NCBI RefSeq assembly: GCF_022818495.1
Contig: NZ_CP089291.1
Location: forward strand, 4,667,501-4,731,500
Direction of reading: 5' to 3'
DNA: 64,000 bases
Source of the DNA: Fodinisporobacter ferrooxydans
Lineage (GTDB): Bacteria; Bacillota; Bacilli; Tumebacillales; MYW30-H2
Each line of letters opens with the position of its first letter. Position 1 is the stretch's first letter. The position numbers were made by a program, and so were the translations under genes. Below are positions 52,471 through 60,705 of the stretch, piece by piece. The notes beneath the pieces are model-generated. The model made no database searches. It had not been told where the DNA came from and saw only the letters and a program-made list of their open reading frames with translations.

Positions 52471-55350
52471 TTAGTAGTCTGTTTGAGATATGGTAGTAGA
52501 AGATACTTGACGCATCCCTGTAAACAACTCATGTTCCGACCGTATCGCTTGGTATGCACGTATCGTTTTTTCCGCGATCGCATCCCACTGGTATGTCTGA
52601 TATATTTTTTCCTTTGCATGTTTCGCCAGCGTTCGGCCGTATTCTTCATCCCGTAAAATCGATACAATTTGATCGGACAAAGATTGTACGTGGCCCGTAT
52701 AAAATGTAGCGCCATCTACCCCATGTGTTACGATATCTTTTAAACCGCCGGTATCAGAGACTACGACTGGAGTGCCGGCAGCCATTGCTTCCAGCGCAAC
52801 GATGCCAAACGGTTCATATAGGCTTGGAAATACACAAACAGAAGCAACTTGCAGCAATTGATTTCGTGTGGAATCTTCAATAAAACCGGTAAACAATAAA
52901 GATTCGGAAATCCCCAGTTCGATTGCTCTTGCCTCTAGTTCCGCCAACATAGGCCCACGCCCGGCAATCACGATTTTCGCTTCCGGAACTGCCCGGATAA
53001 TGCTTGGCGCAGCTTCGATCAACAGATGCACACCTTTTTCACGCACCAATCGTCCGACGAAAAAGATGATCTTCTGCGACTCATCAGCAAATGGCCGCTT
53101 CGATGCAAGCATACCCGCCGGAATTTGAATTTGTGAAAAATCTACCCCGTTGGGGATCACGTCCACTTTGTTCCGGTCCAGCCAGAAAATTGCGCATACT
53201 TCTTCCAACATCGATTCACTGCATACGATCACTCGCTCCGATTCATATGTGAGCTGCCACTCGGTATTGTGAATTCTATGCTGCAAATCGGAATGTATGC
53301 CATGATTTCGTCCCCATTCCGTGGCGTGAATGGTACAAAGCAACGGGATTTGCAACTCCTGCTTCAATTGTTTGGCGGCAAGACAAACAAGCCAGTCATG
53401 TGCATGTATGAGTTCAAACGCGAGGCCCGTTTGCAACAATCCGCGAACGCAATCGATCATGGCCAGATTCAGTTGGAATACCCAGGAATGAAACGATTCT
53501 CCGGCGGGACGCTGTACGTATGCTCTATGTACATGCACACCGGCAACTCTTTCATATGCCGGACATCCATCCACATCTCCCGTAATGACGTGCACATCCC
53601 AGCCATGTTTGACTAAAGCGATCGACAAATCATATACATGTCTGGATAAACCGCCAACAATCATCGGCGGAAACTCCCAGCTTAACATGACAACACTTGG
53701 CTTTTGCCTGGATCGAACGGGCGCAACCATGTTTGCCAAATTTTGTTCAGGCAGCACACATCCAAAACGATACTCGGGATGATAGACCCGGTAATCCACG
53801 TCTGGAAATACACTGTCGTGGATCTCTATTTCTGTCAGCCAATCTTCCTGAATCTGATTGGTTTCCAACATTTCCACTAATGTATGAAATCGATTCACAT
53901 GCCACTTGGTTCGTTTCACGGCGTAATCGACAAATGTCTGGGAATCCATGATGAAAGCCCAGTCGCTGCTTTGTGCCAACATCAATTCCCGTGCCGCCTG
54001 GTTCAACACACGCCGTTGTACTCCTTTTGCATGCGGGAATCGCTCGGTTAATTCGATCATGACCGCTTCCATTTCATGCAGCGCCGGATACACCCAATCG
54101 TTATTTCCTTGCAGCCAAACATCTGCATAGCCGTGACGTCCCCATGATGACATCGACATTTGACACTCTTGATAGTCGGAATACAGATTCAAATATTCTG
54201 ACGGTGTGATACAGGCGATCGTTGATTGATCGCAATATATTTTCCGGAAGAGATAATCGATCCATTGCGGGCCTTCAAACCACCAATGTCCAAATAGTTC
54301 CGCATCATAGGGGGCCACCACGATCGGGGAGCGTCCCATTTGTGACTGCAGGTATTCGACTTGGCGCTGTCGGTTAAACATAAAATTGCCTGCATGAATC
54401 GCTGCTTTTTCACTTGCCCATTGCGGCTGGTATGTCTGTTTGTCAACACCTTGCCCGGTAATGCGGTAATATTTCATTCCAGTATGAATGCGTATGCCAT
54501 CTTTATGGATATAAGGACGAATGGTATCAAGATCGAGATCAAAACCGATATCCCGATAGTATTCCCGATAATCCGGATCACCCGGATAGCCTTCTTGCGA
54601 ACTCCAGACTTGTTTGGAAGATTCGGGATCACGGGCAAATGCCGCTACACCTCTTGCTGTCACAATCGGGGAATATACGCCGAATAACGGTTGCGGATTG
54701 GCATCCAGCACACCATGTGTATCGACAAAGAAATACTGCAACTGACATTCCCGCAAGATTTCTTCAATTCCCGGGAAATATCCGCATTCCGGCAACCAAA
54801 TTCCTTTTGGCGCCTTGCCGAATACTTGTGTGTGCAATTCTACCCCGGTTGCAATTTGTGCACGCACAGCTTCTTTTCTCATGACCAGGGGCAAAAACGC
54901 ATGGGTAGCTGCTGACGTAATCAATTCCAACTTGCCTGCATCTTGAATCTTGCGGAAACCTTTCAGCAAATTTCCGCCATATTGCTGCCACAACTCCATA
55001 TTTCGTGAAAATCGTTCGATATACATATTCACAGCGGGCTGAAACTCCGGCTGCTCCTGTACCCGTTCCCTTTCCTTGTGCGCTAATTCCAGTAAAGATA
55101 CCAGATGTTTTTCATAGCGTTCTTGCAAAAGCGGATCTTGCAGCATCGAGATCAGTGTGGGAGTCATGCTCATCGTGATGCGAAAATCAATGTTTTCTTC
55201 CATCAAGGTTTCGTAGACATGTAATAAGGGAAGATACGTCTCGGTGATCGCTTCGAATAACCAGCGTTCTTCCAAATAATCCGTACTTTCCGGATGTTTA
55301 ACAAAAGGCAAATGTGCATGCAAAACCAAGGCCAGATATCCGGTCTTCAT
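52471..55350 (-). CDS. Fusion of GH57 (DUF1957) branching-enzyme-like domain and GT4 glycosyltransferase
   Basis: The 959-residue cytosolic protein has residues 1-about 540 as a GH57 branching-enzyme type: [14 protein letters not shown] at the N-terminus, [12 protein letters not shown] (about 183-194, catalytic Glu) and [17 protein letters not shown] (about 350, catalytic Asp). Residues about 565-945 are a GT-B enzyme: [34 protein letters not shown] and [18 protein letters not shown] (E-x7-E). Elongation and branching of an alpha-1,4-glucan by one polypeptide is the likely role. ATG 55350 follows AAGGAGG. Such fusions are uncommon. Confidence 0.88.
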
Positions 55351-56833: not shown

Positions 56834-59800
56834 TCAAGTCTCCGCTCCTGGAATGGAAGGAATATCTGCAACTGTAAGTGTCAACAAGTCTTCCATCTGA
56901 TCCATCCCATGGTTTTGGATACGTGTCGCCAATGCAAGGCGCGTTTTTTCAAATACATTTTCCGCCAGACGCCCATTTCCTGACATTCCGTCAAAAGCGG
57001 CTGTACAGTTGATAAAATATTCCCAGAGCCGTTCTTCCACTTCAGATGGCATTTCGAATTTTTCTTGCGCGGCTTTTTGTTTGAATATTTCCACCAGTTC
57101 TGAAGCTTGATAGTCCGGAAATTCCAAGTGAAAACGAATCCGGCTTTTAAGACCCGGATTCACATGCAAAAGTTCTTCCATCTCTTTCTTATAGCCGGCC
57201 AGAATGACGACAAGATTGCCCCTTTGCTCATCCATTTCTTTGACCAGGACGGCAATTGCTTCTTCGCCATATTGCCTGAGTCCGCCTTTGGCGAGTGCAT
57301 ATGCTTCATCAATAAAAAGGATGCCGCCGAGCGCTTCCCGGATTTTTGCCGCTGTTTTATGAACCGTCTGCCCCACATATCCTGCAATCAGGTCTTTTGC
57401 ACTCACTTCCACAAAATGCCCTCGTTTTAGCAAACCGATCTCTTTCAGCCATTCCCCGATCAATCGGGCAACCATCGTTTTCCCGGTTCCCGGATTTCCC
57501 GTAAATGCCATATGCATCATTGGCGGCTTTGATTCGATCCCCAATTCCAGACGTTTTTGATCGAAGACCAAAAGATTTCCAATTTGCTTGAGCGTATCTT
57601 TTACTTCCTTAAGCCCCACCGTCCCTTGAATTCGCTCCCAGACGGGATTGTGGCTTGAGTTTGTCGATTCTGCAAATGTAAAATCTTCTTTTGTCAAAAC
57701 GGTATACGGATCGAACTCCTGACTGCTGTCGGCAGCCACCCGGTTCGCGTGGTTGATCACCGCTTGCTCAATCAAGTTTCGGATCATCCGCGCATTGCCA
57801 AATGTATCATCGACACGCGCCTTTTCAATCAATTCCCGCAATACGCCATCAACATTTGCATCAAGTTCATAGGAATACTGGTTCTTCGCCATCTGCTTTG
57901 CAATTTGCAGCAATTCCTCAATCGTAAAGTCGGGAAAATCCAGATAAAAAGGGATGCGATCCCGCAAACCGATATTGGAGTTGAGAAATTCCCCCATTTC
58001 CTTCTTGTACCCGGCTAAAATCACGACGAGCTGGGAGCGGTAGTCTTCCATCGCCTTTACGAGTACATGGATCAGATCATGCCCGTAATCTTTAGCCGAT
58101 TCCGCTTTATACAGCGCATGTGCTTCATCAATGAAAAGAATGCCGCCGATTGCCTGCTGAATGTATTTGGCCAGGTTGGCTTCGGAATGTCCGATATGCT
58201 GACCGATCAGTTTTTGCCGATCCACTTCCACCACATGGCCGCTTTTCAATACACCTGCCTGTTGTAACAATTTTCCCAGGAAACGGGCAGTCATCGTTTT
58301 TCCTGTGCCGGGATTGCCGGAAAAACACATGTGCAACGATGGAACCGTTTCTTTTACGGAAATCACGGATTGGCGTTTTCGCTCAAAACTGACATAGTTG
58401 ACAATCTTAGTAACCTGTTGTTTTAAGTCCGATAAACCAATCCAGTCGTTCATTTCCATTTCGATGGTCGAGGCGCGTATTCCCTCATCCTCCTGTTCCG
58501 TCGATCCATCCACATCCATTGTCCCGGATTCTATGTTTTGCTCTGTTGCCATATCAGCAGGCAGCCAAACCTGATAACAAACATTGCGATATACGATGTT
58601 AAAGGAGGCGAATCGATTGTCATAACCGGTAAACCGTATCGTAGCTGTCTCTGATGATTCCTGGAAGGGTTGTAATATCCGCAATACTTGAGCCATTTTC
58701 ATTGCATAGTCGCCGGTTGCCACGCGTTTGGACATTTTGCGTGTTCGCACAAGCTGTTCGTCAATGGCAATATCCACAATGCCCGCGTTGGAAGAAATGC
58801 GGAGAATATCACCTGGTACGTGTTCAATATGTTTGACAAAATCTTTGACCTTTCCAAATACCAATTGAATCGATTTGGCTGGTTCCCATTTTTCTGTCTG
58901 TACCATAGCTTCCATTGTTGTGCGGAACTGACTCTCATCTGCAAACGTTTCCGGATCAAAAACATCCATATCGGCAAACGGAACGGTTACGCCAGTAAGT
59001 TCAATGGTCTGCTCCGTCAGTTCCAGCCGATCTGCATCCATGCGATTCTCAAGCGCTTCGCAGAACATGATTACGTTCCGGCTTTGAATCCACCCTTTTT
59101 TCTCCTGGATGTGTCTTGGCGTACGAGCAAATGGAATCGTTGCACGCATGCCCGAACATTCGTAAACGGTCGAAAGCCTTAGACCATATTCCCCATATTG
59201 CAGATACATGGGTGTGGCCAATGGATAGGAACAATTTAATATTTGGGAAAAAATTTTCAAGGCTGTTTTGACATCTGCAACCGCAAACGTCATTCCCTGC
59301 AATTCTTGCTTTTTCAACGGGAAAAATACTTTTGTCCGTTTGTTGAATCGAATCTCAGCTTCACCGCCGACTTCGGAATCTAACATTTGCAGGCGCATGC
59401 ATTTGTCCTCATACATTTGCAAACTGACAGTCGCAGGCAGATCCATCCATCGCAAAAAACGAACAAACGGTTCTTTGGGAAATGAACCGGAAAATGAGGT
59501 ATCCGCATACACCGGGACTGTTTGGCTGAAAATGGTTGCCAACTGATCTTGTATTTCAAATGGAATCGAAGAACCTTGTGTTGTTTGCAGGAGTTGTAAA
59601 AATTCAGATGAAATCAACCATTGCCCAGATGCATAGGAACTTTTCGCAACGGAAGCGAACTGTATTTGCTCGGAACGATTCGTTTGTACGTTCCCATCTT
59701 CCGCCAATTGATATTCGACAGGTACCCGATACGACTTTCCGGCATCTAAAAATGTCAGCGTATTTGTCCGGAATTCCAACGTTATCGTATCGGAACCTTT

Positions 59801-60064
59801 GCGATTGAACGTTTCAAAGGCTTGCTGCAGTTGATGCGCATACACAACATATATAGAATCCCCGGGGATCTCGGAGGGATCAAACGAGCGGACTGGAAGA
59901 AACATTCGTAAACAACTCTGTTGTGTTGTTTGTTCCAGGATCAAGCGCATCTTGACCGGGTCCAACCGCATGCGAATGGTTTCCTGATCTGTGTATTGGT
60001 GTGATGCGGTTCCAAAATAGTGCTGCCAGTTCGTACGATCCATGCGAACACGAATCACGCCCAT
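56834..60064 (-). CDS. PCNA/sliding-clamp-like N-terminus fused to two CbbX-type AAA+ ATPase modules
   Basis: The 1076-residue protein has two CbxX/CfqX-SpoVK-type AAA+ domains in its C-terminal half. The first has Walker A GNPGTGKT at about 582, Walker B GGILFIDEAHAL at about 640 and a presumed arginine finger in GLRDRIPF. The second has GNPGTGKT at about 855, GGILFIDEAYALA at about 912 and GLKSRIRF. The first about 510 residues read like processivity-clamp repeats: IRMRLDPVKMRLIL, then IYVVYAHQLQQAFETFNRKG with DTITLEF and YRVPVEY, and a final AMKMAQVLRIL ... TATIRF ... CYQVWLPADM resembling clamp C-termini. Single gene; ATG follows AAAGGAG. The clamp assignment is by eye. Confidence 0.7.
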   Translation of the reverse strand: MGVIRVRMDRTNWQHYFGTASHQYTDQETIRMRLDPVKMRLILEQTTQQSCLRMFLPVRSFDPSEIPGDSIYVVYAHQLQQAFETFNRKGSDTITLEFRTNTLTFLDAGKSYRVPVEYQLAEDGNVQTNRSEQIQFASVAKSSYASGQWLISSEFLQLLQTTQGSSIPFEIQDQLATIFSQTVPVYADTSFSGSFPKEPFVRFLRWMDLPATVSLQMYEDKCMRLQMLDSEVGGEAEIRFNKRTKVFFPLKKQELQGMTFAVADVKTALKIFSQILNCSYPLATPMYLQYGEYGLRLSTVYECSGMRATIPFARTPRHIQEKKGWIQSRNVIMFCEALENRMDADRLELTEQTIELTGVTVPFADMDVFDPETFADESQFRTTMEAMVQTEKWEPAKSIQLVFGKVKDFVKHIEHVPGDILRISSNAGIVDIAIDEQLVRTRKMSKRVATGDYAMKMAQVLRILQPFQESSETATIRFTGYDNRFASFNIVYRNVCYQVWLPADMATEQNIESGTMDVDGSTEQEDEGIRASTIEMEMNDWIGLSDLKQQVTKIVNYVSFERKRQSVISVKETVPSLHMCFSGNPGTGKTMTARFLGKLLQQAGVLKSGHVVEVDRQKLIGQHIGHSEANLAKYIQQAIGGILFIDEAHALYKAESAKDYGHDLIHVLVKAMEDYRSQLVVILAGYKKEMGEFLNSNIGLRDRIPFYLDFPDFTIEELLQIAKQMAKNQYSYELDANVDGVLRELIEKARVDDTFGNARMIRNLIEQAVINHANRVAADSSQEFDPYTVLTKEDFTFAESTNSSHNPVWERIQGTVGLKEVKDTLKQIGNLLVFDQKRLELGIESKPPMMHMAFTGNPGTGKTMVARLIGEWLKEIGLLKRGHFVEVSAKDLIAGYVGQTVHKTAAKIREALGGILFIDEAYALAKGGLRQYGEEAIAVLVKEMDEQRGNLVVILAGYKKEMEELLHVNPGLKSRIRFHLEFPDYQASELVEIFKQKAAQEKFEMPSEVEERLWEYFINCTAAFDGMSGNGRLAENVFEKTRLALATRIQNHGMDQMEDLLTLTVADIPSIPGAET

Positions 60065-60242
60065 CGTTTTCGCTCCTTTCTCATGTTTGCCTTATTGCAT
60101 TCTATGCGAAAGAAGTCTGGGCGTAGGCTTTTCCCGAACGAAACTGCCTGTAAAATTAAAAAAAAAACCGCACGCTGTCCTTGCATCCAAAGGAACGTTT
60201 TCAAACATTGGATACACAAGGGATACGTGCAGGTTTGTTCGG

Positions 60243-60593
60243 TTAACGGTTTAGTTCATCAATCGTTTCGTCCGTAATTCCAGTCCGTATATTATAGGCC
60301 TCAAGGACAGGAGTCACAAAAATCTTTCCATCGCCCATTTGCCCGGTTTTTGCACCTTTCACAATCGCCTCAATAGTCGCTTTGACAAATTCGTCCGAAA
60401 CGACAATCTCCATTTTCAACTTGGGATGCAGATTAATTTGAAACGTCTTGCCGCGATACACGCCAGTGATATCCTTTTGCTGTCCTCTTCCTTGTACAGG
60501 CAATACGGAAAATCCGGTCACTCCAACCAACCGCAGTTCACGAATCACATCGTGCAGCTTCTCAGGACGAAAATAGGTTTCGATCTTTTTCAT
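60243..60593 (-). CDS. PII-family nitrogen regulatory protein (P-II/GlnB-like)
   Basis: The 116-residue trimeric signal protein has motifs MKKIETYFRPEKLHDV, RGQQKDITGVYRG (T-loop), NLHPKLKMEIVV and GDGKIFVTPVLEAYNIRTG (C-loop), all typical PII features for ATP/ADP and 2-oxoglutarate binding. The position of the uridylylated Tyr51 is Phe, so control by uridylylation is excluded, as expected for Bacillota. No amtB or glnA is adjacent. ATG 60593 follows GGGGG. Its partner is unknown. Confidence 0.9.
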   Translation of the reverse strand: MKKIETYFRPEKLHDVIRELRLVGVTGFSVLPVQGRGQQKDITGVYRGKTFQINLHPKLKMEIVVSDEFVKATIEAIVKGAKTGQMGDGKIFVTPVLEAYNIRTGITDETIDELNR

Positions 60594-60705
60594 AACGTTA
60601 ACCCCCAATAGCCTCAACAGGAAACAAGCTTCTTCTTTTGATTCTACATGTTTCCATCCATTTGTCTAGTTAAAAGATCGCTGCCTGCCAGATCCGCACC
60701 ATGTC

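Follow-up and report, generated by a model that had tools for sequence, protein, structure and literature searches.

A gene of Fodinisporobacter ferrooxydans encodes a protein in which a predicted sliding-clamp fold is covalently joined to two AAA+ motor modules of the SpoVK/CbbX type. The gene lies in the stretch of 64,000 nucleotides analysed here (the window), where its minus-strand reading frame runs from 60064 to 56834, opens with ATG, has no internal stops and specifies 1076 amino acids. We judge it reasonably probable that the product is an ATP-driven remodeller of the SpoVK/CbbX/EccA clade that would act in the mother cell late in sporulation and use the clamp fold as its substrate recruiter. 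Five components of this proposal were computed directly: that the two parts are fused, that residues 1–245 adopt a clamp fold, that both AAA+ modules keep their motifs intact, that the protein descends from a tandem AAA+ chassis carrying helical or TPR N-termini, and that a sigma-K-like promoter is conserved. The features are as follows.

56834..60064, minus strand: whole gene, 1076 aa, clamp fold plus tandem AAA+ (open reading frame; 7 orthologues within the order)
60098..60124, minus strand: sigma-K-like promoter, AC-N16-CATAGAATG (weak -35, 9/10 match at -10)
60073..60079, minus strand: ribosome-binding site AAAGGAG, rated good (sequence)
59705..60064, minus strand: clamp-fold domain 1, residues 1–120, beta-alpha-beta3 twice (models; family profile, E=1.9e-12)
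59330..59680, minus strand: clamp-fold domain 2, residues 129–245 (models of the window protein and of an orthologue)
58544..59317, minus strand: probable clamp-fold domains 3 and 4, residues 250–507, a tentative assignment (strand/helix order; absent from 7/7 orthologues)
58451..58543, minus strand: short linker, residues 508–538 (orthologue equivalent about 100–150 aa, variable and low-complexity)
57674..58450, minus strand: AAA+ module 1, residues 539–797 (Walker A 58295–58318, Walker B 58121–58141)
56861..57643, minus strand: AAA+ module 2, residues 808–1068 (Walker A 57476–57499, Walker B 57302–57322)

Pfam identified an AAA and an AAA_lid_6 domain in each of the two modules of the window protein. 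The Walker A sequence GNPGTGKT occupies residues 583–590 and 856–863, and the Walker B, sensor 1 and arginine-finger motifs are intact in both modules. Using the published definition of the SpoVK/CbbX/EccA clade (PMC10659427), we found its Walker A and B motifs and the GY at sensor 1 in both modules, together with the asparagine upstream of the arginine finger and the second arginine in sensor 2. A pore-loop-like motif in module 1, QHIGHS, carries a histidine where the orthologues have tyrosine. The whole protein scored 509.6 bits against the SpoVK model TIGR02881 over two matching stretches (cut-off 422.95), module 2 being the best single match, but it stayed below the cut-offs for CbbX (451 versus 459) and EccA (367 versus 467). 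The original prediction of two SpoVK/CbbX-type modules with intact Walker motifs, covalently joined to the N-terminus, is thus borne out by Pfam, by the motif positions and by the HMM scores.

The window protein resembles SpoVK of B. subtilis in its above-cut-off AAA+ type, in its origin from a sporulating member of the Bacillota and in a putative sigma-K-type promoter like P2 of spoVK. However, the SpoVK equivalog is defined by a single AAA+ module and a short N-terminal domain, which in SpoVK comprises residues 2–41 (PMC10659427), whereas the window protein has two modules preceded by 510 clamp-like residues. The same genome encodes a separate, single-AAA+ SpoVK-like frame. Since the SpoVK cut-off is exceeded, automatic annotation probably names the window protein SpoVK as well, and the label 'stage V sporulation protein K' then masks a different protein. 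CbbX and EccA belong to the same higher-order AAA+ clade, and EccA likewise has a separate N-terminal domain; in both, that domain is of another kind, and the motor of the window protein differs in being tandem.

To characterize the N-terminus we relied mainly on AlphaFold2 models, whose underlying alignments were shallow (7–8 sequences; 7 for the orthologue). The model of an orthologue N-terminus (pLDDT 81, pTM 0.79) consists of four beta-alpha-beta-beta-beta units, which make up two clamp domains. In a Foldseek comparison with the PDB, sliding clamps made up 50/50 of its top matches at probability 1.0 (best E 2.2e-10), with near full-length coverage, TM-scores to the query of 0.52–0.66 and identities of 8–15%; they included PCNA, Rad9–Rad1–Hus1, DnaN and the African swine fever virus clamp. 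All 50 top matches of the window protein model were likewise clamps at probability 1.0, and in the viral library the named matches were mostly PCNA, DnaN/beta clamps and herpesvirus processivity factors. An unrelated predicted fold had been named beforehand as the refuting outcome; the result favoured the clamp instead. Within the window protein, 10-residue blocks of residues 1–245 mostly had pLDDT values of 70–91, dropping to 49–64 in a loop around 121–150. Residues 246–510 show a compatible order of strands and helices, with pLDDT mostly below 50, and an internal duplication of residues 1–250 into 250–510 was undetectable by sequence.

Sequence comparison gave fainter signals. No Pfam model matched residues 1–510, even at E=10, and the clamp families PF00712/PF02767/PF02768 and PF00705/PF02747 gave no match at E<=10 in the window protein or in the four orthologue N-termini scanned. 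A family profile run against PDB sequences had a beta sliding clamp as its sole match at E<=10, with an E of 0.93 that is not significant alone. When the same profile was compared with a DnaN profile from the order, the score was 29.2, which none of 200 column shuffles reached (highest 25.4), and the two profiles aligned N-terminus to N-terminus. A proposed resemblance of the C-terminal CYQVWLPADM to the DnaN C-terminus was rejected as weak, about 0.8% of background segments scoring equally well.

It is extremely improbable that the clamp likeness is a structural coincidence, in which AlphaFold2 and Foldseek placed an unrelated beta-alpha-beta repeat near clamps: the low identity, the shallow alignments and the missing Pfam matches would fit such a coincidence, but two models each matched only clamps among their top 50, the orthologue over nearly its full length, and the DnaN profile aligned in register. 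From the models we are confident of a clamp fold across the orthologue family and mostly confident of one in residues 1–245. A second clamp-domain pair in residues 246–510 is plausible, and the window protein would then probably carry four clamp domains versus two in most members. The earlier proposal that all 510 N-terminal residues are clamp-like therefore stands for residues 1–245 and is only plausible beyond them. Its further claim, that archaeal PCNA is closer than DnaN, found no support: PCNA, 9-1-1 and DnaN fell within about tenfold of one another in Foldseek E-value, and the sole sequence-level signal, from a profile comparison made with DnaN, is to DnaN.

Like DnaN, PCNA and 9-1-1, the predicted domains are built of two beta-alpha-beta3 units each, and most family members share with PCNA two domains per chain. 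They differ from these clamps in having no significant sequence family match, and the window protein differs in its fusion to SpoVK-type motors. A normal, separate DnaN is encoded in the same genome. In one genome that carries an orthologue (G004), a second, divergent DnaN-like gene lies beside the normal one (contig 2: 55802–56146).

A survey of homologues and their neighbours, suggested with the original prediction, recovered seven orthologues among the 13 other genomes of the order (Tumebacillus and relatives) and no conserved gene neighbours. The tandem AAA+ pairs are 50–53% identical, and the orthologue N-termini measure about 250 aa and are followed by a variable, low-complexity linker. 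A search with a profile built from these seven N-termini recovers the window protein (E=1.9e-12; residues 1–226). The clamp-fused gene is missing from 6/14 genomes of the order, and sporulation there thus does not generally depend on it. Between close Tumebacillus pairs, dN/dS was about 0.31–0.44 in the clamp region versus 0.12–0.16 in the AAA+ part, which indicates that the clamp region is constrained, yet evolving faster than the motor. The N-terminus alone, used as a single-protein query on the genome contigs, gave no matches. The family profile found none in 399 genomes of the phylum, a weak negative since six candidates per genome were scored and the window genome itself was missed. Gene neighbours vary by locus and are mostly metabolic; there is no conserved operon partner, just a DUF255 gene being common to the window locus and that of one orthologue.

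Tandem ATPases of the SpoVK clade are frequent in Bacilli, with matches at E<=1e-80 in 107/400 genomes, most of them over both modules. All 22 of the closest tandem relatives examined outside the clamp family have all-helical N-termini, and the N-termini of clostridial tandem relatives look TPR-like by eye. In a tree built from concatenated AAA+ pairs, the clamp family was monophyletic (support 1.0) and nested with helical/TPR tandem ATPases (0.87 and 0.905), the enclosing Bacillota tandem clade (0.905) having TPR or helical N-termini. These Bacillota ATPases (L154–L175, L057 and L067) thus share the AAA+ chassis as neighbouring groups (support 0.87–0.91) but differ in their all-helical or TPR N-termini, and in the lack of a sigma-K-like -10 element in the 22 helical members checked. 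By profile, no other SpoVK-clade protein had a clamp-like N-terminus, and those examined had a beta-helix, TPR, helical or another AAA-like module in this position. Because the other members of the Bacillota tandem clade carry TPR or all-helical N-termini, the simplest reading of the sequences has the clamp fold taking the place of a different N-terminal module on a tandem AAA+ chassis, consistent with the published picture of a clade whose conserved motor bears diverse recruitment domains (PMC10659427). The all-helical domain of L154–L175, widespread in Bacilli on tandem SpoVK-clade ATPases, has no Pfam family and shows a mostly conserved RETDN motif.

We then considered the region upstream of the gene. 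In the window the -35 element is poor, consisting of AC only, and the -10 element matches at 9/10 positions. The -10 element CATANNNT(A/G) occurs at -39 to -49 before the start in 8/8 clamp-bearing genes, compared to 9/155 control upstream regions, although the orthologues share ancestry, so that fewer independent events lie behind such counts than the numbers imply. Upstream regions of the helical-N-terminus relatives had no such element (0/22; one match lay inside a reading frame). The full consensus, KCACM and GCATANNNTA with a 14–16 nt gap (PMC3416734), was present as KCACM-N14-16-GCATANNNTA in 4/8 members (L039, L041, L042 and L043). In B. subtilis, spoVK has one sigma-E and one sigma-K promoter (PMC517825), and a sigK match was found in 14/14 genomes of the order. 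Altogether, the consensus match suggests expression late in spore formation. In two genomes of the Tumebacillus group, sigK itself is split in two: the pieces lie about 54 kb from each other in G007 (contig 21, 201223–201642 and 255603–255869) and on contigs 27 and 24 in G005, an arrangement that looks like a skin-type element as in B. subtilis.

In the SpoVK/CbbX/EccA clade, N-terminal domains vary on a conserved motor and are thought to recruit substrate (PMC10659427). As the gene neighbours are unconserved, we infer a recruiting role for the clamp fold from the clade. Under this proposal, sigma-K would direct expression in the mother cell, the outer or interface surfaces of the clamp fold would grip a specific spore-assembly substrate, and the paired AAA+ modules would use their pores to pull on it in the way that CbbX pulls on Rubisco. 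Remodelling would then be a chaperone action resembling that reported for SpoVK on MurG. The clamp shape would probably be reused to catch a protein target, not to slide on DNA.

Clamp superfamily proteins serve as peptide-docking hubs. In a rival reading, the clamp fold would be a DnaN mimic that captures replication or repair proteins through their clamp-binding peptides for the AAA+ part to strip or unfold, for example in shutting down mother-cell DNA metabolism. The sequence does lean to DnaN, and we regard this rival as unlikely. Quite unlikely, too, is a self-contained DNA machine in the sense of the original prediction of a ring plus remodeller, in which clamp domains would ring DNA and the AAA+ part would be a built-in loader or motor. 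The clamp fold is firm, AAA+ ATPases are the usual partners of clamps, two positive residues invariant in the orthologues (K81 and R203) lie in the second helix of each domain, and addA/addB and sbcCD-like genes lie 5–20 kb off within the window; the neighbours nevertheless vary from one locus to the next, most of them being metabolic genes. Several features speak against a ring around DNA: the motor is of SpoVK/CbbX and not RFC/DnaX type, the sigma-K-type promoter points to sporulation rather than replication, the number of clamp domains apparently varies (two versus probably four), clamp and motor are separated in the orthologues by a long, variable linker, and the four helices are near neutral, although their summed net charge (-1 to +4) is uninformative as a discriminator and leaves DNA binding possible. 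In a very unlikely form of such a ring, three chains would place six AAA+ modules as a ring below a closed ring of six clamp domains around DNA or another mother-cell polymer, the four-domain version stacking two.

Most known examples of the clamp fold are DNA processivity rings or related accessory proteins of viral polymerases. Full-text searches of open-licence papers found no published description of a clamp-fold/SpoVK-type fusion and no paper mentioning both SpoVK and a sliding clamp. If substrate recruitment is its role, an ancient DNA-ring fold would be reusable for protein recruitment, as an exchangeable N-terminal module on a SpoVK-type remodeller under apparent mother-cell control. 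The protein also offers a compact system in which to ask whether the clamp fold still closes into a ring.

Elsewhere in the window, positions 52471–55350 encode a 959-aa fusion of a GH57 branching-enzyme-like domain and a GT4 glycosyltransferase, adjoined by a nucleotidyltransferase gene and a DUF4912 gene. Directly upstream of the clamp–AAA+ gene, positions 60243–60617 hold a gene for a P-II-like protein, apparently with its own terminator.
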